From: Pseudomonadota bacterium
Lineage (GTDB): Bacteria; Pseudomonadota; Gammaproteobacteria; Acidiferrobacterales; Acidiferrobacteraceae
Assembly (NCBI GenBank): GCA_021777335.1
Contig: JAJYDT010000020.1
Location: 1 to 36,823 of the forward strand
Reading direction: 5' to 3'
Length of the DNA: 36,823 nucleotides
In this document: positions 4,107-25,662 of the stretch, in pieces
How the letters are laid out: the number at the start of each line of letters is the position of its first letter
Position numbering within the stretch: position 1 is the stretch's first letter
Notes under the pieces: model-generated
Told to the model about the DNA's origin: nothing
The model's database searches: none
What the model saw: only the letters and a program-made list of their open reading frames with translations
Position numbers and translations under genes: made by a program

Positions 4107-4772
4107 ATGAATGCGGATCGGCGCAAGAAGATCTTTAAGCGGCTGCAGCGCGCCAACCCGACGCCCGTCACCGAGCTGCGGTACGAGACACCGTTTCAGT
4201 TGCTCGTCGCAGTGATCCTGTCCGCGCAAGCGACCGACCGTAGCGTGAACGAGGCGACCAGGACACTGTTCGAGGTTGCGCCGGATCCGTCGCGCATAGC
4301 CGCCCTTGGCCTCGAGGGCATCAAGGCGCACATCCGGCACATCGGTCTTTTCAACACTAAAGCACGGAATGTGCTGGAAACGTCGCGACAGCTCCTTGCC
4401 CTCCATAGCGGGCAGGTTCCCGGCAGCCGCGCAGCGCTCGAGGCCCTGCCAGGCGTTGGACGCAAGACCGCGAACGTGGTACTCAATACGGCCTTCGGCG
4501 AACCGACCATCGCGGTCGACACCCATATTTTCCGGGTCGCGAACCGCACCGGACTGGCCGCCGGAAACACAGTATCCGCCGTTGAACGGAAACTGATCAA
4601 GGTCGTTCCGGTCGAATACCGCAAGAACGCCCATCACTGGCTGATCCTGCACGGACGCTATGTCTGCACGGCACGCAGACCAAAGTGTGGACAGTGCATA
4701 CTGGTCGACCTTTGTGAGTATCGAGGAAAGGTGTGGCATCCATGCCAAGCAGAATCGCTGCAACCGGACTGA
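4107..4772 (+). CDS. nth: endonuclease III (DNA glycosylase/AP lyase)
   Basis: Removes oxidised pyrimidines in base-excision repair and cleaves the abasic site. The 221-residue protein has the helix-hairpin-helix LPGVGRKTANVVL with the catalytic lysine (GRK) and the catalytic aspartate in AVDTHIFRVANR. The C-terminal 4Fe-4S site has the exact family spacing, C-x6-C-x2-C-x5-C (CTARRPKCGQCILVDLC). The upstream frame is open back to 3999, but that part overlaps the preceding gene; ATG 4107 matches the normal family start (MNADRRKKIFKRL) and lies 7 bases after the previous stop. Its 3' end overlaps the FIST gene by about 30 bases, so the two are probably co-transcribed. Confidence 0.96.
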   Translation: MNADRRKKIFKRLQRANPTPVTELRYETPFQLLVAVILSAQATDRSVNEATRTLFEVAPDPSRIAALGLEGIKAHIRHIGLFNTKARNVLETSRQLLALHSGQVPGSRAALEALPGVGRKTANVVLNTAFGEPTIAVDTHIFRVANRTGLAAGNTVSAVERKLIKVVPVEYRKNAHHWLILHGRYVCTARRPKCGQCILVDLCEYRGKVWHPCQAESLQPD

Positions 4773-5848
4773 GCCATGGCGCGCGCCCGCATGCGGATCA
4801 TGCGGCCAGGGCGGTTGAGCGCGCGCTCGCTGCAGCCGGTCTCTCCGTGGCCCGCGCTGTCCTGCTGTTCCTGACACCCCATTATGCCCGGCATCCGGAA
4901 GCGGCGCTTCGGGCAGCGGCACGAGCGGCAGGCTGCCTTCAGGTCATCGGTGCAACCGGCGCCGGCATACTGAACGAAGAGGAGTGGCTGCTCGATGCCC
5001 CGGGAGCCGCAGCGATGGTCTTTGATGCCCCGATCGCCCTCACTCCACCCATGGCCACCTTTGGGGATGATGACGTGGTGCTGAGCCTGTGCGTCCCGAC
5101 GGGGCTGTCTGCCGCGTGGCTCGACGTACCGGCAATCCGCATTGGCGCGGTCTCGGGTGACCTCTTCGGGCAGGGGCCGTTTACCGTCTGGAGTGGATCG
5201 AGGATTGCTGAAAACGGCCGCGCAGAAGCCCGCATCGATGGTGCGCGCGGCTCCATTCAGGCCTCTCAAGGCGTTCGCGCCCTGACCTCGCCAATCGAGG
5301 TCGCGGAGGTGCACGGTTTCGATCTGCTGAGGCTTGGCAACTATCCCGCCCTCAATGTGCTCGTAAAGTCCCTCCCCATTGGGGTTCGGGAGATGGACCG
5401 CATCCCGCTGCATCTGATCATGGGGGGGGTCACCTTTGGCGACCCGGCGACAGCGATCAAGGAAGGCCGCTACCGGCTCAACCATATCGTGGCCGCAAAC
5501 CTCAATAACCAGTCTATCACCCTGTCCCGACCACTAAATCGCGGGGAACGCCTGTTCTGGGCGATGCGCGACACGTTGGCGGCCGAGCGTGACATGCGTG
5601 TCAGCATCGAGCAGGCACACGACCGGTTGGGTGCGGAACCCGATTTCGCGTTGCTCTTCCCTTGCATGGGCCGCGGGCCCCATTTCTACGGCAACACCGA
5701 TCGCGACCTCGAGCTCCTGAAGGCCCGGTTTTCCGGGCTCCCCGTGCTCGGCATGTACGGTAATGGGGAGATCGGACCCTTGGACGGCGGCAACCATCTG
5801 TACCAGTATTCCACCGTGTTCGGGCTTTTCGCGACAGGATCAGCGTGA
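4742..5848 (+). CDS. FIST N/C domain sensory protein
   Basis: FIST domains (FIST_N plus FIST_C) are predicted small-ligand sensor modules found alone or in signalling proteins. The N-terminal half (about residues 10-190) has the alternating strand/helix pattern with LLFLTPHYARHP and the GATGAGIL turn. The C-terminal half contains the characteristic FPCMGRG, LPVLGMYGNGEIGP and NHLYQYSTVFGLF segments. Length (368 residues) is normal for a stand-alone FIST protein. No membrane helix or signal peptide is present. The start could also be GTG 4733, which has a well-spaced GAGG; ATG 4742 is used here. The gene overlaps nth upstream and the DUF1841 gene downstream by one base (TGATG). The ligand and output are unknown. 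Confidence 0.85.
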   Translation: MPSRIAATGLSHGARPHADHAARAVERALAAAGLSVARAVLLFLTPHYARHPEAALRAAARAAGCLQVIGATGAGILNEEEWLLDAPGAAAMVFDAPIALTPPMATFGDDDVVLSLCVPTGLSAAWLDVPAIRIGAVSGDLFGQGPFTVWSGSRIAENGRAEARIDGARGSIQASQGVRALTSPIEVAEVHGFDLLRLGNYPALNVLVKSLPIGVREMDRIPLHLIMGGVTFGDPATAIKEGRYRLNHIVAANLNNQSITLSRPLNRGERLFWAMRDTLAAERDMRVSIEQAHDRLGAEPDFALLFPCMGRGPHFYGNTDRDLELLKARFSGLPVLGMYGNGEIGPLDGGNHLYQYSTVFGLFATGSA

Positions 5849-10066: not shown

Positions 10067-11608
10067 CTACAGCACGGCCCTGCGTGGCCGCTGCGCGAAG
10101 TCGAAGCCGCCGAGTAGGTTATAAGAACGCCGGTCCCGCTCCTGCAACGGCTTGAGCCCGAAACGGGACTCTATCAGAGCGAGTATCGATCCCGTGTCAG
10201 CGGCATTATGATCCACAAAACCCCGGCGTGACCACGGGCTTACAATAAGCGCTGGGATACGTGTCCCGCAGCCGTAGGCGTCGCGACGGGGTGGAGCCAC
10301 GTGGTCCCAGAAACCACCGCCCTCATCATAGGTCACGATAATGAGCGAGCGTGGCCACAGGGGGCTCTCTGCCACGGCACGTATCTGTTTCATCACCCAA
10401 TGCATCCCCCAGGCCGGCGCCGAATCCATTGGATGCTCATCATGGCTCCCGGCAGCCTTGAGAAACGATACGTACGGTAAACGACCAGTCCGGGCGTCAG
10501 CGAGAAAATCCTCCGTATCCCGCATGTGCCCACCGCGCACATAATCGAACCATCGAGGGAAATACTGAAACGGATTGTGGTGGGCAACATAAATGTAGCT
10601 TGAATCGATGACTGCCGATCCATCGCCTGGACCTCCCACATGTTTCATGGCCCATGGTTTCACGGCATTCCAGCCCTCGTTATACCATGCCCATGAGACG
10701 TGTGCCGCGCTCATTCGATCACCAATATTGGCAAAGGTCTGAGCCTCGGGAGGTGGCGACCTGCGCAGGGCAGCGGGGTTCGCATCTGTCGGCCCTAGCA
10801 ACGGCGGTACATCGTTAATCAGGATACGGTGACGGTCATATGGCAGGTCGAACAGCGGCGCGTCACCGCGTGCGACCAGCACCGGCGGCGCTCCCGGCCA
10901 GACAGCTGAGCGAGCTGCCGCAAGATAGAGCGCGTTTCCAGTCGAACCTCCGCTCATGGCCTGAAAGAAATGGTCACACAGGATGTACTCATCAGCGAGC
11001 CTGTGATACGCCTCAAGATCCTGCCGTTCGTAGTATCCGAGCACTGCTCCGTTCGGGCGAGACGAGGCAAACAGAGCCCGCTGTGGGTCAATATGACGCG
11101 CGTTACGGGTGTTGAATGGGGCATGGGGCTTGTGACGCGCCAGCGCCACGAACCGGTCCATGCGTCCCCGGTCCATCTGTGCATACATCCGGAAAAACCG
11201 GTGTTCCGGATCCCATGGCGTGTTTTTGTCGGCCGGCAGATACGGCCGCAGAGGGAAAGGCCGGTTTTTGAGGAGTGCGCCCTCAAACGCGGGCAGATCA
11301 TCGGGAACTGGCAACACGTCGTAGGGGATACCGGCCGGATTCACCTGCAACCGGTCGAAGCGTGCATTCAGTTTTCCTCCCTGGTCGAGAAGGTTGGCAA
11401 TGGGCAGTCCGCGAGGATGGCGGTAGGTGCCAAAATAGTGATCGAAACTGCGGTTCTCCTGGTAGATCACGATGATATGATCGATATGTTGGCGCAGACC
11501 GGAAACCGCGGAACGCGACCGCGCCCACAAAGGCGGAGACCAGGCAGCGGCGAGGGTGTAGGCCGCGGAATGGGTGAGAAATTCACGTCGGCTGAAACGC
11601 TGCTTCAT
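10067..11608 (-). CDS. Tat-exported phosphoesterase (phospholipase C / acid phosphatase AcpA family)
   Basis: A 513-residue secreted phosphoesterase of the alkaline-phosphatase superfamily. The N terminus is a twin-arginine signal (SRREFLTHSAAYTLAAAW, then cleavage near LWA). The metal/nucleophile motif ENRSFDHYFGTY is close to the mature start, and the C-terminal metal-binding motif TYDEGGGFWDHVAPP is intact, so the enzyme should be active on phosphodiesters or phosphomonoesters. Substrate specificity cannot be read. ATG 11608 has a very good ribosome binding site (AAGGAGGAG, 7 bases before) and sets the signal peptide correctly; the longer frame from 11632 does not. It is monocistronic, with its own upstream gap. 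Confidence 0.92.
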   Translation of the reverse strand: MKQRFSRREFLTHSAAYTLAAAWSPPLWARSRSAVSGLRQHIDHIIVIYQENRSFDHYFGTYRHPRGLPIANLLDQGGKLNARFDRLQVNPAGIPYDVLPVPDDLPAFEGALLKNRPFPLRPYLPADKNTPWDPEHRFFRMYAQMDRGRMDRFVALARHKPHAPFNTRNARHIDPQRALFASSRPNGAVLGYYERQDLEAYHRLADEYILCDHFFQAMSGGSTGNALYLAAARSAVWPGAPPVLVARGDAPLFDLPYDRHRILINDVPPLLGPTDANPAALRRSPPPEAQTFANIGDRMSAAHVSWAWYNEGWNAVKPWAMKHVGGPGDGSAVIDSSYIYVAHHNPFQYFPRWFDYVRGGHMRDTEDFLADARTGRLPYVSFLKAAGSHDEHPMDSAPAWGMHWVMKQIRAVAESPLWPRSLIIVTYDEGGGFWDHVAPPRRDAYGCGTRIPALIVSPWSRRGFVDHNAADTGSILALIESRFGLKPLQERDRRSYNLLGGFDFAQRPRRAVL

Positions 11609-11632
11609 CTTGTGCTCCTCCTTTTGCCACAC

Positions 11633-12029: not shown

Positions 12030-12728
12030 CTAACGGCTGATCATATGTACCGCAACCGTGAATGTAAGCGGTCGCTTTGGCATGCGACTCGTGAATGGTG
12101 GATAGCTCAGAGCGTGGACCTCCGCGACACTCGCGATATCGATTGGCCGCACCCCACTGCTTCGTACGATGTGAGCCCACAATAACGAACCGTCCGGCGT
12201 GAGACGGAACGCCACAATAGCACGGCCGCGCAGATGCAGGGCGCGTACGATCGCGGGCAAATGCACATGCGCCTGGATGATTGCGCGCAAACGTGCGGCG
12301 TACCGATCAGTGGCGTGCGACCGCACCTCGGGTGCCACTGGCATCGGCGCCGTCACTGGCATCGGTGGCAGTGGTGAAGGCGGCGGCGCATGTACCGTTG
12401 GAGCATGTGCAGGCAGCGGCCTGTGTTGCAGTTTCCGGGGGCGCGGCGCTGGCCGGGGAAGTACCTGCCTCGGCATAGGATGAGGCTTCGGCTTCGGTTC
12501 CGGCCGGCGTGGTGGGGCCACGATGACCGGCGGCAACGAGACGATGCGCACCCTTATCGGTGCCGGCTGCGTGGACTCAGGAGGAGGCTGGTGGTACACA
12601 GAATGAAGGCTAAGCACGGCAACCAGACCCGCCGCTTCAAGTAGTGCGGCACAGATGAGCGCACGGCGGAACCGACGATTGTCATCTCGTCCTGGCAGAC
12701 CAGGCACCGTTATCTGCGATGCACTCAA
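12030..12728 (-). CDS. tonB: TonB energy-transducing protein
   Basis: TonB spans the periplasm and couples the ExbB/ExbD proton motor to outer-membrane receptors. The 232-residue protein has a cytoplasmic N terminus, one membrane helix (about residues 22-42, ALICAALLEAAGLVAVLSL), a long Pro-rich periplasmic spacer (about 50-140, with PEPKPKPHP and PPPSPLPPMP) and a C-terminal TonB fold (LRGRAIVAFRLTPDGSL, SSGVRPID, YPPF). The YP motif before the last strand is preserved. Its start overlaps the receptor stop by four bases, making it the last gene of the exbB-exbD-receptor-tonB unit, an order that suggests a TonB dedicated to this receptor. Confidence 0.93.
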   Translation of the reverse strand: MSASQITVPGLPGRDDNRRFRRALICAALLEAAGLVAVLSLHSVYHQPPPESTQPAPIRVRIVSLPPVIVAPPRRPEPKPKPHPMPRQVLPRPAPRPRKLQHRPLPAHAPTVHAPPPSPLPPMPVTAPMPVAPEVRSHATDRYAARLRAIIQAHVHLPAIVRALHLRGRAIVAFRLTPDGSLLWAHIVRSSGVRPIDIASVAEVHALSYPPFTSRMPKRPLTFTVAVHMISR

Positions 12729-15079
12729 AAACCGGCCTCGAGGGTTGCGTAGATCATGCGCGGCGCGCCCGGGTACGCCAGCACTGCACCGGCGGATGCG
12801 GGCGCCACGAAGTAACCGCCGCTCGAGATATACTCAAACTCATTGTACTGCTTGTTCAGCAGGTTAAGTGCTGTGATTTCCATCTTAATCTGTTTGATAT
12901 CCGTGAGCCCGTGCAGATGAAGCGTGGCGATGAATGAAGCATTAACGAGTCCATACCCGCCCATTTTCTGGTCTGTGGGTGCGCTCGTCAGATTGCTGAA
13001 CAGGTATTGACTGCCGACGTACTGGTACCACAGCCTTGGTTCGTATACGGTCCCGTGACGATACCAGTGGTAGTACGCGCCGACATTTAACGTTTGTTTC
13101 GGCACGTAGGAGACCGGCAAACCGTTATAGGACACCCCACCGACGACGTAGTTGGCAAAGCGAGCCCGTTCCAGACCGGCATTGGCAAAGACGTGCAGGT
13201 TGTACAGCGGATCGTCCTCGGCATACAGGTTGATTCCGCGGTAATCGGAACTGCCAAACGCGGACGTGAGATAATTGCCAGTCTGGCTCGACACGCCAAT
13301 AATCTGGTTCGAAAACCTGAGATCGTACCAGTTGGCGCCCATCTGGAGATGGTTGAGGCGGTGCCCCTGGTGGACGTACCACTTCAATCCCATTTGATAT
13401 TCTCGCCCCTGCTCGAGCTGCAGACTTGACGCAAGGATGCTCTGATAGGGACCGCCGCCGCCTCCATTGCTCGGCTGACGATACGCCTCCGCATAATTGG
13501 CATAGATGGCGAGACCAGGTGCCACCCGCCAGTTGATATCAATCGATGGCTCGGTCTTACTGAACGCGGTTGCGGCATTAGGCAGCTGTGCCTGGTTCGT
13601 GCCCGTAGCCCCCGGAAAATCAGCAGTCCCGTTGTTGTAATAGGACGTCTGGTAATTGATGAAACGGATCCCCGGCGTCACGTCGACGGTCGGCAACACC
13701 CGCACGTCGTCCTGCACAAACATCGCGAGATTCCGCTGATACCAGTAGTCGCTGCGGTAATTTGCGTTGGGGGCGGTAGCCGACCCCCCAAACGCGGGGT
13801 TGTAGAACGCATTACGCGAATTGTACTTGCTCGTCATGAAGAAACCGCCCACGTCCACGGTGTTATAGGGCAGCTTGGCTTCAAAATAGATCTTGTCGCC
13901 ATAAGCATACTGATACGGATTGTTGTACTCGTATAGGTTTGGCTGCCCCTGCTCATAGTTGTACTCATGGAAATGCAACCGAGACTCGGCCTGGTACCAG
14001 ATGAGATTATGCAGGCTTGTCACCTGATCGAGCGGCAATTTAAGGCGCATATAGCCGAGATCAGCTTTATTACTGTCCTGCTTGTTCCAAATGCCGTACG
14101 GCAGGGCGCTGTAGAAACCGGTGGTTTGCTGACTGTACTCTGGCCCCGGGATGCTGGCACCGCTCGCGGTAAATCCATTCGTCGTGACCCCCGGGATCGG
14201 ACCTACCGGGATCACATTGGGACGGTAACCCGTGCCCTTTGCGGTATATCCGCCGATGCTCAGGCTGCCGCCCCCCATCAGGGTCTTGCGCAGCTTGCCG
14301 AACCAAGCATAATCATGGTTCGGGCTTCTGAACCCATCGGGCGCATCTCGGAAACTGTTACCGGAACCGAAACCGCCGGCGATGATCGCCGAATAACCGT
14401 CATGGATGCCAGTACGCAGGTCGAAGTACGTGTCGCGGTTCTGGTCGCTGCCGTAAGTAGTGCCGATATCACCGCCGGCCTTGTCCGTTGGCTGCAGCGG
14501 TATGAAATTGACCTGCCCGCCGAGGTTGTCATACCAGCGGTCCTTCGGATCACCGGGACCGTACGTGGTAGTAACCGCTTGGATCATCGACATCTGGTTG
14601 ATCTCGGGGGACTGCCACAAACCGGTTGCCGGATCCACCATTGGCACGCCATCAAAGGTGACTGAGACGCTACCGTCGTCGATATTGCCCCCAGAAGGGC
14701 CTCCCCAACCTTGTTTGATGCCGTTAACACTCATCGAGTATTTGGTTGCGCCGTTACTGCCGTAGCCGCTCACACTCACACCTGGAGCATAACTCAGCAC
14801 CTGTGCCGCACCTGCATCTGGCCCAGCTGCCTCGATCTCGGCGTGCTTGATGACCTTGACCGTCTGGCCCGATTGCAGCACCTGCCCCGCAGTGGGCACA
14901 CTGCCACCGCCCGTCTTCCGGTGCGATTTCGCGTTTACCTCACCGACATTGACCGACGAAGACGAACCAGCGGCAACAGACGGTGCCAAGGTGGGCGCTG
15001 CTCGTACAACGGCGGGGAAACCGGCAACGCCCAAAACGCACAAGACAAGCGAACGCGCACACCTGACACACCTGATCAT
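12725..15079 (-). CDS. TonB-dependent outer-membrane receptor
   Basis: A 784-residue gated beta-barrel transporter for a large or scarce ligand, probably a ferric chelate or other metal complex (inference from family). It has an N-terminal signal peptide (LVLCVLGVAGFPAVVRAAP), a short region before the plug, and a plug domain with GQTVKVIKHAEIEAAGP, AAQVLSYAPGVSV and DGVPMVDPATG. The long barrel is rich in Tyr/Asn/Gly strands and ends in LEAGF with a terminal aromatic residue, as outer-membrane barrels do. A possible TonB box is SVNVGEVNA near residue 45. There is no N-terminal signalling domain, so it is not a FecA-type transducer. The start has a G-rich ribosome binding site (GGGGGAAGGG). 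It lies between exbD and tonB. Confidence 0.93.
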   Translation of the reverse strand: MIRCVRCARSLVLCVLGVAGFPAVVRAAPTLAPSVAAGSSSSVNVGEVNAKSHRKTGGGSVPTAGQVLQSGQTVKVIKHAEIEAAGPDAGAAQVLSYAPGVSVSGYGSNGATKYSMSVNGIKQGWGGPSGGNIDDGSVSVTFDGVPMVDPATGLWQSPEINQMSMIQAVTTTYGPGDPKDRWYDNLGGQVNFIPLQPTDKAGGDIGTTYGSDQNRDTYFDLRTGIHDGYSAIIAGGFGSGNSFRDAPDGFRSPNHDYAWFGKLRKTLMGGGSLSIGGYTAKGTGYRPNVIPVGPIPGVTTNGFTASGASIPGPEYSQQTTGFYSALPYGIWNKQDSNKADLGYMRLKLPLDQVTSLHNLIWYQAESRLHFHEYNYEQGQPNLYEYNNPYQYAYGDKIYFEAKLPYNTVDVGGFFMTSKYNSRNAFYNPAFGGSATAPNANYRSDYWYQRNLAMFVQDDVRVLPTVDVTPGIRFINYQTSYYNNGTADFPGATGTNQAQLPNAATAFSKTEPSIDINWRVAPGLAIYANYAEAYRQPSNGGGGGPYQSILASSLQLEQGREYQMGLKWYVHQGHRLNHLQMGANWYDLRFSNQIIGVSSQTGNYLTSAFGSSDYRGINLYAEDDPLYNLHVFANAGLERARFANYVVGGVSYNGLPVSYVPKQTLNVGAYYHWYRHGTVYEPRLWYQYVGSQYLFSNLTSAPTDQKMGGYGLVNASFIATLHLHGLTDIKQIKMEITALNLLNKQYNEFEYISSGGYFVAPASAGAVLAYPGAPRMIYATLEAGF

Positions 15080-15131: not shown

Positions 15132-15530
15132 CTAATGTTCGGGTTGTGCCGCAATCCCTATTCCGGCGATGCCCGCACGCCGGCATGCATCCATGACCCG
15201 GATGAATACCTGAAACGGCACCGCTGCTGCGGCCGCGATAGTCACCTGTGGGTGCTGTGCCGCCCGCGCTACGAGCATCCCAGTCAAAGCCTCCGGCGTA
15301 AGAGGCTTGCCATTCACGCTCACGCTGCCGTTGGCAAGCACACTCACGAGAATCTGGGGTCGCGGCAACGGCCGCGTCGTGCTGGACTGAGGCAGGGCAA
15401 GCCCAAGACCCTTGTCCGGTATCATGTGTAACGTGACGATCAGAAAGAACACCAGCAGAAAAAACATCACGTCGATCATGGGGATCAGCTCGATGCGGCT
15501 GCGCCGGCGCTCGAAATAATTCATGCGCAT
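15132..15530 (-). CDS. exbD: ExbD-like biopolymer transport protein
   Basis: Proton-channel subunit that works with ExbB to energise TonB in the inner membrane. The 132-residue protein has the short cytoplasmic N terminus MRMNYFERRRSRIELIP, one membrane helix with the essential proton-carrying aspartate (MIDVMFFLLVFFLIVT, Asp at residue 20) and a periplasmic domain with the ExbD pattern VSVLANGSVSVNGKPLT and DACRRAGI. Length is normal for ExbD. The start could be ATG 15530 or ATG 15524. It is separated from the receptor start by 52 bases and from exbB by 64 bases, the latter almost fully occupied by a 19-codon frame. Confidence 0.93.
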   Translation of the reverse strand: MRMNYFERRRSRIELIPMIDVMFFLLVFFLIVTLHMIPDKGLGLALPQSSTTRPLPRPQILVSVLANGSVSVNGKPLTPEALTGMLVARAAQHPQVTIAAAAAVPFQVFIRVMDACRRAGIAGIGIAAQPEH

Positions 15531-15531
15531 A

Positions 15532-15591
15532 TCATCGGCCCCGGGTCACGATCAGAAACAACGCCACGAGCAATGCCATCGCGTCGAACAT
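15532..15591 (-). CDS. 19-residue ExbD-like membrane micropeptide
   Basis: The 64 bases between exbB and exbD contain a frame that begins 3 bases after the exbB stop (TGATCAATG) and ends one base before the exbD start (TGATATG). It encodes MFDAMALLVALFLIVTRGR, a single hydrophobic helix with a charged end. It aligns without gaps to the ExbD membrane helix: FDAMALLVALFLIVT against IDVMFFLLVFFLIVT, 8 identities in 15 including the aspartate. It may be a remnant of a second exbD or a functional channel subunit. Its ribosome binding site is weak; translation would rely on coupling. Frame differs from exbD by one base. Confidence 0.5.
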   Translation of the reverse strand: MFDAMALLVALFLIVTRGR

Positions 15592-15594
15592 TGA

Positions 15595-16278
15595 TCAGGC
15601 CCGGCTGTTGACGGCACGCGCGGTGTGCAGCGGGCCCTGGGTCGGTTGCGGTAGTACCGCATGGCCGCCCGTCAAACGGTTCAAAAGCATCGTCTTGACA
15701 AGATCCAGATGATGCAGGATCAGGCGGATCTCGTTATTCAGCGCATTGAACGCAAGAAGACCAATCATCGCAACAAACAGGCCACACGCTGTCGCCACCA
15801 AGGCATCGGCGACACCACCAGTCACGACCGTGGGCGTGTGTGCGCCATGACCAAGGATCGCGAAGGCATGAAACATGCCGATGATTGTGCCAAACAGCCC
15901 AAGCAGCGGCGCAAGTGTAACAATGGTATCTAATACCCACAGACGGCGGTCGAGATCGGGCGCGAGCAGTAGTACCGATTCTTCAATGCGCGTACCAAGC
16001 TGCTGCATGTCGGTGGGACCATGATGACGGAGCGCCGCCTGTAACAGCGCCGCCTCCGGCAATCCAACTGCCTTCTGCGCCAATGCCGCTAGCTGCGCGC
16101 GGCCAAGATCCTGGGACTCCGCAAGCTCATGCACAATGGCGCCCCCGCGGCGTATCGTGCGCAGCAGGTACCAGAAGCGGTCAACAATGACCGCAAGCGC
16201 CGCCAGAAGCAGCACCGCCATCACGTAAAGCACGCCATCCGAATAATTGACGAGATGAATCAGATATGCCCACGTCAT
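15595..16278 (-). CDS. exbB: ExbB-like proton channel protein (MotA/TolQ/ExbB family)
   Basis: Inner-membrane scaffold of the TonB motor. The 227-residue protein shows three membrane segments: residues about 15-37 (DGVLYVMAVLLLAALAVIV), about 117-140 within the conserved LDTIVTLAPLLGLFGTIIGMFHAF, and about 158-180 (ADALVATACGLFVAMIGLLAF). The LGLxGTIxGM and ALxxTAxGLxxAI patterns are diagnostic for the family, and the threonines lining the channel are present. The large cytoplasmic loop between the first two helices is typical. ATG 16278 has a strong ribosome binding site (AAGGAG, 7 bases). It heads the leftward unit exbB-micropeptide-exbD-receptor-tonB, with a palindromic region about 45-70 bases upstream. 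Confidence 0.93.
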   Translation of the reverse strand: MTWAYLIHLVNYSDGVLYVMAVLLLAALAVIVDRFWYLLRTIRRGGAIVHELAESQDLGRAQLAALAQKAVGLPEAALLQAALRHHGPTDMQQLGTRIEESVLLLAPDLDRRLWVLDTIVTLAPLLGLFGTIIGMFHAFAILGHGAHTPTVVTGGVADALVATACGLFVAMIGLLAFNALNNEIRLILHHLDLVKTMLLNRLTGGHAVLPQPTQGPLHTARAVNSRA

Positions 16279-18017: not shown

Positions 18018-20714
18018 CTAATCCGCCGCCACTGCCTTCTTTGCAAGCCGGTGCAGACGCATCGCCAGTCTGCGCGCCATCTCTCCAAACATCTCGGTCT
18101 GCGTCGGATGAGGGTGGATCGCCTGCCCGACCTGATCCAGAGTGAGGCCGGCTGACACCATGAGCACAGCCTCACCGATCAGCGTATCGGCGTGGTCGGC
18201 GAGCAGATGAACACCGATAACCCTCCCGCTCGTCTTGTCGGCCACCATCTTGATGAATCCATCCCGCTCATTGACCATCATCGCCTTTGCATCGATGCTC
18301 ATCGGCAACTTGATCTCTACCGGCTCAAGCCCCCGTTCGCGAGCCTGGTCAGCAGAGAGCCCGACAAACGCCGCCTGTGGGCGCGTAAAGATTACGCCGC
18401 AATCGCGTGCCGGATCGTAGGCAGCGGGCACGCCAAGGATTGTCGCCGCTGCCACGCGCCCCTGGTGGGCCGCGGTGTGGGCGAGCATGAGACCACCAAC
18501 AACGTCACCGACCGCGAAAATATGCGGCACACTCGTCCGGCACTGCAGATCCACGCGGATCACGCCGCGATCCACGGAAACTCCCGCGCGTTCCAGCATT
18601 AGCGGGCCGACAACCGGCCGTTTCCCGGTCGCGATCAGGACATGATCACAGCCGAACGCAGCAGTCTTGCCATTTGCACGGTAGGCAATGCGCATGGCCC
18701 CAGGTTTCCCCGAGATCCGCTCGACTTCGGCCATGGTTACAAGTGTCAGAAGACGCTCCTTGCCAAGAAGTTCGGCCAGCGTGCGGGCCACCTCGCCCTC
18801 GACCTCGGCGAGTGGCCGGTCCTTGGCCTCGAGTACCATGACCTTTGTCCCAAAGTCGGCAAAGATCTGGGCCATCTCAAGCCCGATGGCGCCGGCACCG
18901 ATGATGCCAAGGCGCTTCGGCACGGTCTTGAGCCCCCAGATCGTGTCAGAGGTAAGGACTCCCGGAAGGTCGTGACCCGGGATGGGCGGCACGAACGGAG
19001 GCGCCCCTGTCGCAATCACGGCAGCGCCGAACGTGATTTTTGTGCCGAACCGCGCGCTCCTGACTGCGGGACGACCATAAGGATCGCGTGTGCCACTCAG
19101 CAGATGCAGTTCGAGGGCGTGTTCTGATGCGAATCGCGCGATCGCGGTACGCATGTCGATTCTGACGCCCTTGTCGGTCTTAAGGGCCATCTCCCCACGC
19201 GCCTCCTGCACTCCTCGCCGAGCCTTTTCGAGACGGGCCCAATTGAGCGATGCGCGCGTCGTGCTCATAACACCGAGGTGACTGTCATGCTGTCGATCGC
19301 GTATGCGGTCGGCGGCTGCGCGCCAGGCCTTGGACGGGATGCACCCACGCCACAGGCACTCGCCCCCTGGAAACGGCGTATCATTGATAAGCACGACCTT
19401 CCTGCCATGAGCTGCGAGTTCCCGAGCGCAGTCTTCGCCCCCGGGACCACCCCCGATGATCGCCACGTCGTAATCCCAAGAGCCTTTGCCCGTAACTAGT
19501 GCAGGGGTAACAGGGGCAGCGGAAACACGCTCGCCACCAATCCATGATGGCTCCTCAACAAATCCGCGGAACGTGTTCAGGAACTTGGCAGCATCCGCAC
19601 CATTGACGATGCGGTGATCCGCAGTCAAGGTCACTGGCATACCCTGAGGTCCAGTCGTTGCGATGGCAAATATTGCCGATGTTCCCGGGACCGGGATCGC
19701 ATCGAACGCAGACACACCCAGCATGCCCATGTTCGAGATCGTAAACGTTGGATGCGAATATTCGGCCGGCTTCAGGCGACGCGCGCGCGCGCGCGTCACC
19801 AGATCCTTCCAGTCGGCATTCAGGTCTGGAAGCGGACGATTCAGCACGTTGCGCAGTACCGGCACGACGAGGCCCATGCCTTCCGTCTCGACCGCGATTC
19901 CGATATCTATCTCCGGGCGCTCGATGATCCGGTCTTCGTGCTGGTACACCGCATTGATCTTTGGATGACGTTTGATCGCAAGCGCCGCCGCTTTGGCCAA
20001 CGCAACGGTCAGCGAAACACCCGCCTTCCTTGCGACTTCGCTCAACCGCTCGGGACGTACGGGTACGGTCACGCGGAAAAGCGGCATCGAGAGCGAGAAT
20101 TCCATGTTATGACTGACCGCTTTTTCCATGCTGTCCATGGGGCGGCCTTTACCAGGCACCTGGAATACTCTCTTTGCAGCCGCCGCCTGGCCTGAATCCG
20201 ATGCCGCGGACACGTCAGATGCGACGATCGCGCCCGTGGCGCCACTGCCCGTGAGGCTGTTGATATCAATGCCGTGCGCGCCCGCAAGCTGCCGCGCATA
20301 CGGCGTTGCCTGTCCAGAACGTGGTCTCGGTGCCGGGGAAGCCCCATGCGGCATGGCCGGTATACGGGTCTTCGGCGCAAGTACAGAACTTGAGACGGCC
20401 GCAGATACAGGTAGCAGGAGGTCCGCATGGGTCTCACGGGCCCGTCGCTCCTCGCGCATGACCTGCCCGGCCTCCGCGACCAGATAGGCAATCGCCTCCC
20501 CCACCGGCACAACGCTCCCGGCGGATATGAGCGGTCCCGACAGGTAACCCTCGTGGAACACCTCGACATCCATGATGGCCTTGTCGGTCTCCACCGTGGC
20601 CACCACAGTACCTCGACTGATGTGATCTCCGATCCTCTTCTCCCATGACACGAGGGTACCTTCGGTCATGGTATCGGAGAGCTGTGGCATCTTGATAAGA
20701 TAGGATTCCGGCAT
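18018..20714 (-). CDS. fused pyruvate dehydrogenase E2-E3 (dihydrolipoyl acetyltransferase / dihydrolipoyl dehydrogenase)
   Basis: One 898-residue polypeptide holds two subunits of the pyruvate dehydrogenase complex. Residues 1-82 are a lipoyl domain with the modified lysine K45 in [10 protein letters not shown]; about 135-168 is the E1/E3-binding domain ([15 protein letters not shown]). About 185-392 is the acetyltransferase domain with the active-site histidine H367 in [11 protein letters not shown], where the usual DHRxxDG aspartate is Asn371. From 412 a flavoprotein follows: FAD box [12 protein letters not shown], redox cysteines C453 and C458 ([13 protein letters not shown]), NAD box [13 protein letters not shown] and the catalytic histidine in HPHPTQTE (H869). 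The disulfide motif reads CLWRGC rather than the CLNVGC of ordinary E3. The gene follows pdhB by 31 bases and precedes argG by one. Confidence 0.95.
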
Positions 20715-20745: not shown

Positions 20746-21726
20746 CTACAACCGTCCCAGTACATTGAGTGCGCCCCGATAGACATCCTCGACATCAGGG
20801 ATCGCCGCCCTTTCCAGGCTCCGGTTATAGGGAACCGGAACATCGGCCGCGTGTACGCGCATTGGCTGCGCATCCAGTGCGAAGAAGCACTCCTCAATGA
20901 CCACCGAGATAATCTCGGACCCGACACCAACTGCAGCCTCGTCCTCCTCGGCAACCAACATCCGGTGCGTCTTCTCCACCGAGCGCCGGATCGTCTCACG
21001 GTCAATCGGCTTGAGTGCGCGCAGGTCAATCACCTCCGCCGACACCCCATCCTTCGCGAGCCGCTCGGCAGCTGCAAGACAGAGATGCACGCTATAGTTG
21101 TATCCAACCAGCGTGATATCGTGGCCCTCGCGTACCACTTCGGCCCCTTCAAGCGGACGGAAGGTCTCTGTGTCAGGGACCTCACCCCGCATATTGTACA
21201 TGCTCTCATGTTCGATCATGATCACGGGATCATTGCAGCGAACCGCCGACTTCAACATCCCGTAGGCATCAAGCGGCCCGCGTGGCGTCACGACGCGCAA
21301 TCCAGACGTGCTCATGAACATGCGTGCAAGTCGCGCCGAATGCTGCGCTGCCAGCTGATGGGCGGTGCCGCCTGGAGTGCGCATAACGATTGGGCAGGAC
21401 ACGCGGCCGCCGGACATATAACGGATCTTCGCGGCCGCGTTGATAAGTGTGTCGAGCGCAAGCAGTGCGAAATTGATCGACATGATCTCGATGATGGGTC
21501 GCAGACCGGCCATCGATGCACCAATGCCAATGCCAACATAGGAATTCTCCGAGATGGGCGTATCGATGATGCGCTTATCGCCATATTTCTGGTACAACCC
21601 GGAAGTGGCCTTGTAGGTGCCGCCCGCAATACCGATATCCTCACCCATCACGATAACCTTCGTGTCGTTTGCGAGTTCCTCGTCATGTGCGCGGCGGATA
21701 GCCTCCCAATACGCCATTTCACTCAT
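20746..21726 (-). CDS. pdhB: pyruvate dehydrogenase E1 component, beta subunit
   Basis: Forms the alpha2-beta2 E1 enzyme that decarboxylates pyruvate with thiamine diphosphate and loads the lipoyl group of E2. The 326-residue protein starts MSEMAYWEAIRRAHDEEL and carries the beta-subunit landmarks VIVMGEDIGIAGGTYKAT, the thiamine-contact segment IIDTPISENSYVGIGIGASMAG (broken here: IIDTPISENS, then YVGIGIGASMAG), VMRTPGG and a C-terminal transketolase domain with VIDLRALKPID. ATG 21726 is chosen over an upstream in-frame ATG 21777, because it fits family alignments and overlaps the pdhA stop by only eight bases. Confidence 0.95.
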   Translation of the reverse strand: MSEMAYWEAIRRAHDEELANDTKVIVMGEDIGIAGGTYKATSGLYQKYGDKRIIDTPISENSYVGIGIGASMAGLRPIIEIMSINFALLALDTLINAAAKIRYMSGGRVSCPIVMRTPGGTAHQLAAQHSARLARMFMSTSGLRVVTPRGPLDAYGMLKSAVRCNDPVIMIEHESMYNMRGEVPDTETFRPLEGAEVVREGHDITLVGYNYSVHLCLAAAERLAKDGVSAEVIDLRALKPIDRETIRRSVEKTHRMLVAEEDEAAVGVGSEIISVVIEECFFALDAQPMRVHAADVPVPYNRSLERAAIPDVEDVYRGALNVLGRL

Positions 21727-22729
21727 GGCGCGCCCCCTGTTGCAGCGGTCCGACCCAGCGGGGATCGCGCTCCTCAAGACAGTACCTGGTCAGATCTTCC
21801 ACGCGCGGCTCTGGACTTTCCTCCGCGAACTTCACGACGTCACTCTCGATTTCCTCCTGCACCGAGCGTTCTATGTCCCGGATGCCCTCCTCGGTCAATA
21901 TCTTTTTCTGTTTAAGCCGCTTTGAGTAAATAAGGATCGGATCACGCGCGGCCCACTGCTGCTCCTCCTCCTTGCTGCGGTACGCATTGGAATCGGACAT
22001 GGAATGACCGCGGGTACGATACGTGAGGAACTCGATGAAATAAGGTCCTTTGCCCGCACGCACGTGGTCCACGGCATTCCGGGCCGCTTCCATGACAACC
22101 TCGATATCCTGCCCATCATGCTGGCTGGACGGAACGTTGTATCCGCATGTACGTTTGTATTGATCCACAACCGCCGTGGAACGGTCGATCCGAGTGCCGA
22201 TCGCATACAGGTTGTTTTCGCATACAAAAAGCACCGGCAGTTTCCAGAGCGAGGCCATGTTCATGGTTTCGTGGAACGTGCCCTGGTTGTTTGCGCCATC
22301 CCCAAGAAAACAGATAGCAATCTGATCCGTACCCTGGTATTGACTCGCGAGCGCGAGCCCCGCTGCAAGCGGAAACGGCTGCCCGACCAGCGCGTACCCA
22401 CCCATGAACCGGACGGTCGGATCGAAGATATGCATTGATCCACCCCGGCCGCGGGACGAGCCGGTCTCCTTGCCGTAGAGTTCCGCCATGACCTCGCGGG
22501 CCGGCGCCCCTGCCTTGATCGCGTGGATATGATCGCGGTAACCGGAAATGACGTAATCGTGCCCGGGACGGGCCACCTCGAGAACACCGGTGGCAATCGC
22601 CTCCTGCCCGGAATAGAGGTGCAGAAAACCCCCGATCTTGCGTTCCATGTAGGCTTCAAAACAGCGCTCTTCAAAGCGCCGGTAAAAGATCATCTCGCGC
22701 AATAACCGTTTCTGATCCGCGGCGTTCAT
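21719..22729 (-). CDS. pdhA: pyruvate dehydrogenase E1 component, alpha subunit
   Basis: Thiamine-diphosphate-binding subunit of the heterotetrameric E1, the type found in Gram-positives and many autotrophic or acidophilic proteobacteria rather than the single-chain AceE of E. coli. The 336-residue protein begins with the helix KRLLREMIFYRRFEERC, has GSSRGRGGSMH, the ThDP motif GDG (143-145) to NN (172-173) with the expected 26-residue spacing, and the regulatory-loop-like YRTRGHSMSDSNAYR. It is the first gene of the pdhA-pdhB-E2E3-argG unit and is divergent from the aminopeptidase gene 153 bases away. On the minus strand TTGACC with GATCAT 17 bases later (about 22846-22874) could be its promoter. 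Confidence 0.95.
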   Translation of the reverse strand: MNAADQKRLLREMIFYRRFEERCFEAYMERKIGGFLHLYSGQEAIATGVLEVARPGHDYVISGYRDHIHAIKAGAPAREVMAELYGKETGSSRGRGGSMHIFDPTVRFMGGYALVGQPFPLAAGLALASQYQGTDQIAICFLGDGANNQGTFHETMNMASLWKLPVLFVCENNLYAIGTRIDRSTAVVDQYKRTCGYNVPSSQHDGQDIEVVMEAARNAVDHVRAGKGPYFIEFLTYRTRGHSMSDSNAYRSKEEEQQWAARDPILIYSKRLKQKKILTEEGIRDIERSVQEEIESDVVKFAEESPEPRVEDLTRYCLEERDPRWVGPLQQGARHE

Positions 22730-25167: not shown

Positions 25168-25662
25168 ATGAGTTTCCAACTGTTCATCGACCGCTGGCTG
25201 CATATCCTAGCGGGCATCACCTGGATCGGGCTCCTTTACTACTTCAATTTCGTGCAGGCACAAGGGCTTGCTGCAGCGCGTGCCGATAACACGGCGAGCG
25301 GGATCACGAAACATATCGCACCGCGCGCGCTTGCCTGGTTTCGCTGGGCGGCAGTTGTCACCTGGCTGAGCGGCGCCTATTTCCTCACCCAATTCCCCGG
25401 ATACAGCCTGCTTGACGCATTCACACTGCACGGCGCGAGCGCCCTTATTGGCGTCGGCGCATGGCTTGGAACAATCATGCTGTTCAATGTCTGGGTACTG
25501 ATCTGGCCGAACCAAAAGAAGGTGCTAGGAATCGTCAAGGTGGATGACGCTCAGAAGGCACGTGCGGCGCGCATCGCATTCCTGGCGTCCCGCACCAACG
25601 TGATGCTGTCCATCCCGATGGTATTCTTCATGATGGCAGGCGCGGTCGGGCTCCCACACTGA
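25168..25662 (+). CDS. four-helix membrane protein, urate hydroxylase PuuD N-terminal-like
   Basis: A 164-residue integral membrane protein with four predicted helices (about residues 8-30, 53-75, 83-110, 143-162). The opening FIDRWLHILAGITWIGLLYY, then FNFVQ, is the hallmark of the PuuD membrane domain; related stand-alone proteins have sometimes been mislabelled as NusG. Histidines lie in or near the helices (LHILAGITWIG, KHIAPRALAWFRW, LHGASALIG) and in PuuD-type proteins such residues bind heme. The C-terminal cytochrome c domain of full PuuD is absent and there are no purine genes nearby, so urate oxidation is not supported. GCGGAGG precedes ATG 25168. Confidence 0.75.
   Translation: MSFQLFIDRWLHILAGITWIGLLYYFNFVQAQGLAAARADNTASGITKHIAPRALAWFRWAAVVTWLSGAYFLTQFPGYSLLDAFTLHGASALIGVGAWLGTIMLFNVWVLIWPNQKKVLGIVKVDDAQKARAARIAFLASRTNVMLSIPMVFFMMAGAVGLPH

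Follow-up and report, generated by a model that had tools for sequence, protein, structure and literature searches.

Three described systems come closest to the locus reported here. The ExbD/TolR family (PF02472) comprises proteins with an N-terminal cytoplasmic segment, a membrane helix carrying an essential aspartate and a periplasmic domain. In some bacteria two complete exbD genes follow in exbB-exbD1-exbD2 clusters, and the names exbD1 and exbD2 are in use in the literature. The third system is termination–reinitiation coupling between closely spaced genes, a subject of PMC10666635 and PMC6728339. According to PMC10666635, coupled translation in E. coli and Haloferax falls steeply with spacing and has nearly vanished once the genes are about 20 to 38 nt apart, with coupled starts lying about -8 to +10 nt from the upstream stop; a 2-nt spacing already lowers reinitiation by 5–70% in the published pairs, and reinitiation requires just the last 15 nt of the upstream frame. 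For the motor itself, the structure described in PMC6778125 has two ExbD helices packed closely inside the ExbB pore, their Asp25 residues near pore threonines.

The window, by which we mean the whole stretch of 36,823 nt that was analysed, comes from an assembly of 164 contigs and 2.57 Mb that is the sole genome of its genus among the genomes examined. The features that concern us are the following.

15595..16278, minus strand: exbB, 227 aa, MotA/TolQ/ExbB proton channel family (Pfam PF01618, E 3.7e-26)
15531..15594, minus strand: exbB-exbD gap, 64 nt, occupied by the putative relic
15544..15591, minus strand: relic core, 48 nt, of which 36 bases equal exbD nt 52-99 (15479-15432)
15530..15598, minus strand: possible full copied block, 69 nt, with end matches of 6-mers only and thus suggestive only
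15532..15591, minus strand: 19-codon open reading frame encoding MFDAMALLVALFLIVTRGR, a possible translational relay
15132..15530, minus strand: exbD, intact, 132 aa (Pfam PF02472, E 3.1e-30), the probable source of the copy
12725..15079, minus strand, as exbB and exbD: TonB-dependent receptor (PF00593/PF07715; Shine-Dalgarno energy -9.3)
12030..12728, minus strand: tonB (PF13103/PF03544), TTG start as listed

The order on the minus strand is therefore exbB, gap, exbD, TonB-dependent receptor and tonB, all four genes having Pfam matches. Read along that strand, the gap follows the exbB TGA (15597-15595) with TCA, the ATG at 15591, 19 codons, a TGA (15534-15532), a single T and the exbD ATG (15530). 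The frame is in phase with exbB, begins 3 nt past its stop and ends 1 nt ahead of the exbD start. The earlier note had described a 64-base gap holding a 19-codon frame with 3 bases before it and 1 after; these coordinates are correct, and the strand, which it left unstated, is minus. The frame product is MFDAMALLVALFLIVTRGR and the corresponding helix of the genome's own exbD is MIDVMFFLLVFFLIVT.

Further along the cluster tonB, if read from its listed TTG, begins inside the end of the receptor gene, the two having 4 nt (TTGA) in common, and coupling may therefore operate elsewhere in this TonB cluster. Past tonB, on the same strand, there is a PF04185 phosphoesterase (10067-11632, minus). On the far side of exbB, an 898-aa frame (18018-20714, minus) has lipoyl, E3-binding and E2 acyltransferase domains joined to a complete dihydrolipoamide dehydrogenase and is, on these predicted domains, an E2–E3 fusion of a 2-oxo acid dehydrogenase; the two frames upstream of it on the same strand (20746-21777 and 21719-22729) are E1 subunit-like by eye.

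Aligned without gaps, the relic core and the genome's own exbD helix share 36 of 48 bases and nine of 16 residues; without the start Met this is eight of 15, aspartate included, as had been counted before. The likeness was set against 7,313 16-codon segments with a mean hydropathy of at least 1.8, drawn from stop-to-stop frames, each 200 codons or longer, at loci collected for the analysis. These matched the core at 17.7 bases on average (sd 3.2), which leaves 36/48 5.7 sd higher, and a match of 33/48 or more was reached by eight of the 7,313, all eight being ExbD helices. As only ExbD helices reach this value, common descent of the relic core and the ExbD helix is well supported. Within the window, none of 14,471 64-nt segments outside the exbD region equalled the local score of the gap against exbD (25; best 19), and in a blastn search of the junction against its own genome the best non-self match was the exbD helix (47 nt, 77%, E 0.0037), about 110 nt away on the same strand. 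The 19-residue peptide matched no Pfam family at E 0.001, a weak test at such a length.

Two further candidates were tried and rejected. The other two ExbD-type genes of this genome would be poor sources, matching the core at 21/48 (L032) and 24/48 (L033) versus 36 for the neighbouring exbD. The local alignment also ran on into the 3' end of exbB; codon-shuffled sequences scored at or above it in 1,318 of 2,000 cases, and likeness in the exbB tail was therefore rejected.

A DNA profile built from the exbD genes of 92 relatives only did find the gap in the exbD-masked window (E 0.002), with 60 positions aligned that reached the end of the gap, but a segment of an unrelated membrane gene (25596-25635) scored slightly better (E 0.0007). 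The case for descent rests for this reason on the comparison with the genome's own exbD: general ExbD likeness is insufficient, and it is the ungapped likeness to the neighbouring gene that carries the claim. Searching the DNA of 57 genomes of the order with the 141-nt junction returned some match at E up to 1 in 53 of them, and the E values of three of these non-self matches (7e-5 to 0.0035) were below that of the own exbD. Two of these lie over the exbB tail; the third (L119, genome G026) lies over the relic, is gapped and falls inside a 635-codon membrane-protein-like frame that is not an ExbD. Given these positions, the gaps and the nature of that frame, all three were taken as chance. Among the best non-self matches examined (L118-L121), that of L121 spans 28 nt of the junction.

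Relative loci were gathered from a contig scan (the best 80 of 120 confirmed loci), from 96 searched genomes (30 loci, one being that of the window) and from the window's own genome, which gave 111 loci with an ExbB-type gene besides that of the window, two of them the paralogous pairs of the same genome. Fourteen of the 111 lacked a recognisable helix motif or its 48 nt and were left out: three at contig ends, two without a nearby exbD and the rest distant TolQ-type pairs, including the two own paralogues. The measured set of 97 loci holds 93 distinct sequences, with some genomes contributing more than one locus. The distance from the exbB stop to the exbD helix is 46–71 nt in 97/97 of these, compared with 115 nt here, and an insertion or frame of this kind was found in none of the 97. 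Spacing is likewise short in the paralogues of the same genome (47 and 53 nt), in second ExbB copies of the same family (L147-L154; 54–63 nt, without insertion, some on contigs already counted) and in L155, from another family, and L156 (50 nt each). The earlier note had proposed a comparison of the junction in related genomes; in the relatives measured, the frame is missing from 97/97 loci.

Measured from the exbB stop, the position equivalent to the exbD start falls at -5 to +10 nt in 85 of the 93 distinct junctions and at +11 to +20 nt in the other eight. In L003, L016 and L036 the exbD ATG is exactly 3 nt past the exbB stop and in the same frame, the very position that the relic ATG occupies here; L003 and L035 have an identical exbB-exbD junction. 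Two of 169 plasmid records with ExbB relatives were examined: the A. caldus record has the end of exbB at 2501 and the annotated exbD start at 2517, and the incomplete gene table of pACRY05 lists no exbD past exbB.

An ExbD match was present within 1,300 nt past exbB in 108 of the 111 loci (the full 1,300 nt being available in 100 of 111), and two exbD genes in tandem occurred in none of these 108 relative and paralogue loci. On an Acidithiobacillus ferrivorans contig (L058, about 4690-5100) a single exbD is matched as two halves that abut but differ in frame (query 1-52 and 50-131), which looks like a frameshift. At two Acidiphilium loci (L069 and L073) an ExbB relative is present, and the 1,300 nt downstream of it contain no match to ExbD.

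We think it probable, with a good deal of confidence, that part of exbD was duplicated in this lineage and that the frame is what survives of the copy, a judgement that covers the relic and not any role as a relay. The sequence appears to derive from the neighbouring gene, as a relic of this type should. It resembles ExbD/TolR proteins in that its DNA comes from the ExbD helix and has the Asp at the same place; it differs from them in lacking the N-terminal cytoplasmic segment, the PMID proline and the periplasmic domain, the 19 codons beginning at the helix and ending past it, and in a helix that has drifted and has no Pfam match. About 48 nt, perhaps 69 nt, of helix-coding DNA are present twice, the extra copy being the one between exbB and exbD. 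A short template switch could have produced it, or else a tandem duplication from which the first 51 nt were later lost. CTGATC (15598-15593) and ATGATA (15535-15530) recur in exbD at 15488-15483 and 15425-15420, spanning 69 nt in both places, although these terminal 6-mer matches are not significant on their own; TGAT micro-repeats at both ends of the block would be the likely break points. The timing is suggested by helix position 13, where the relic and the own exbD have Leu and 0/97 relatives do; when the comparison is widened to 104 helices, a single distant TolR-type protein has it. As the relic shares this residue with its neighbour, the copy was probably made in this lineage.

If ribosomes ending exbB were to reinitiate first at the relic ATG and next at that of exbD, the relic would act as a relay keeping the exbB and exbD subunits translationally coupled, with the peptide as a by-product. 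The idea draws on the position of the relic ATG, which is where some relatives start exbD, and on its stop, which is 1 nt from the exbD start. The spacings are +3 from exbB to the frame and +1 from the frame to exbD, both within the distances for coupled pairs; with the frame disregarded the spacing is +64. By the published distance rules a silent gap of 64 nt would break coupling and an open relic with +3/+1 spacings would bridge it, although in the published pairs a spacing as short as 2 nt already has its price. The spacing in relatives, tight in 93/93 distinct junctions (-5 to +20 nt), suggests that coupling matters and that a silent 64-nt gap would be costly, and it is a better argument for a relay than the Shine-Dalgarno energies. 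Like known termination–reinitiation pairs, this junction has short stop–start spacings at the ends of the frame and neighbours that encode subunits of one complex; unlike them, it would be coupled through a putative 19-codon relic instead of directly. The distance rules favour such a relay, and we hold it to be a real possibility that falls somewhat short of an even chance.

An inert relic, one that serves neither translation nor as a peptide while exbD uses its own weak site, is a sub-case of the same duplication, and we regard the relay and plain inertness as about equally likely. The same tight spacing that argues for a relay counts against inertness, as it held in each of the distinct relative junctions. 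Other observations favour an inert relic. The Shine-Dalgarno energy ahead of exbD is a weak -5.0 kcal/mol (background mean -2.9, sd 2.5), compared with -2.5 for the relic, -8.1 for exbB and -9.3 for the receptor, and many other genes of the window have weak sites too. The values for exbD in relatives are -1.5 to -7.1 at 16 of 17 loci, all but two between -1.5 and -4.1. Starts outside tight pairs in the window are equally weak (proS 0.4, argD -2.4), so that weak exbD sites in relatives say little for a relay; with uncoupled genes weaker still than its own weak site, exbD might start unaided. A bridging frame arose by chance in 8.4% of 20,000 shuffled gaps and in 4.1% of 20,000 random minus-strand 64-mers of the window, and tight packing on its own is not remarkable. 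In a neutral simulation of 8–12 random substitutions, with indels outside the model, the core stayed free of stops with a probability of 0.92–0.96. A junction RNA element was also sought and rejected: nothing in the window reached the gathering score of an Rfam family, and the fold of the junction is ordinary (z -0.44).

The frame could instead be what is left of a second exbD that was formerly whole (exbB-exbD1-exbD2) and from which two deletions removed the N-terminal and periplasmic parts, which we consider unlikely. Such clusters do occur in other bacteria, and the TGA-T-ATG spacing resembles an ordinary gene junction. The likeness extends to the presence of more than one exbD-derived sequence behind one exbB; there, however, both exbD genes are complete, whereas here the helix part alone is doubled. 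The gap holds no trace of periplasmic-domain sequence, its likeness to exbD stopping at ATGATA right past the helix; more events would be required; and tandem exbD genes are missing from the 108 loci with a downstream ExbD match. The suggestion that the frame is the remains of a second exbD is supported in so far as its DNA was copied from the exbD helix region and has since diverged, Leu 13 still being shared, but the shape of the copy suggests a partial duplication more than a whole second gene.

A functional micropeptide, a truncated ExbD helix that would enter the ExbB pore or the membrane and tune the motor, is in our view very improbable. It has in its favour that the frame is open from ATG to stop with Asp retained, and that the seven changed residues are all still hydrophobic, the mean hydropathy being 2.42 compared with 2.74 for the exbD helix. 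Open frame, ATG, Asp and hydropathy were jointly retained in the neutral simulation with a probability of 0.016–0.078, these criteria having been picked post hoc. Retention of Asp taken singly had a probability of 0.48–0.63 under the 8–12 substitutions, about even odds. The core has diverged from the own exbD by 25%, and the relic has the base that is rare among relatives (0–3%) at 10 of the 12 differing positions, the other two being undecided. Eight of the 16 core residues are seen in 0/97 relatives. Those changed on the relic side are F2, A4, A6, L7, V9, A10 and L11, each in 0/97 relatives; helix positions 2, 7, 9 and 11 are invariant in the 97, and at positions 4, 6 and 10 two other residues alternate. 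This drift from the ExbD pattern would fit a relaxed constraint on the relic, and the neutral figures together with the drifted residues give, for this one genome, no good sign of selection for a peptide.

The peptide would also make a poor ExbD-like helix. It begins two residues ahead of the Asp and ends in RGR, and despite keeping the Asp it has just 13 hydrophobic residues in succession, fewer than a membrane span would usually need. Basic residues set the orientation of membrane helices (the positive-inside rule), and with the basic cytoplasmic segment gone the C-terminal RGR would favour the reverse orientation. The ExbB pore is moreover already occupied by two tightly packed ExbD helices in the structure described (PMC6778125). 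That a translated relic peptide with its Asp binds ExbB and competes with or tunes ExbD, in a bacterium with close acidophile relatives that face a very steep proton gradient, is a shade less probable again. The proposal of a minimal extra helix in the ExbB pentamer, and with it that of a new kind of TonB-motor component, is thus unsupported, given the absence of the frame from all 97 loci, the drift at seven residues (four at invariant positions), the short run, the lost basic segment, RGR at the opposite end and an Asp retained at about even odds under neutral substitution. In the open-licence literature that was searched, neither an ExbD-helix peptide nor a relic of exbD at the exbB-exbD junction was reported.

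A chance likeness, with DNA of some other source inserted in the gap and by accident encoding a hydrophobic peptide, is all but refuted by the comparison with 7,313 segments, where no non-ExbD segment reached 33 matches. The nearness of the relic to its match on the same strand also speaks against it, even though T-rich second positions are common to membrane-helix DNA, an unrelated segment of the window equals the gap against the relatives' profile and the frame in G026 has a smaller E than the own exbD.

The 19-codon frame is a true and unusual detail of this cluster, a probable relic of partial duplication that is possibly useful as a translational relay. A peptide that acted on the motor would add a new kind of component to the Ton system, and the evidence points the other way. 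As a relic only, the frame would be a small and neat case of a partial duplication within an operon that persists as an open frame between two genes whose products are required together; if the relay works, it would mean that coupling lost to an insertion can be restored by a short open frame.
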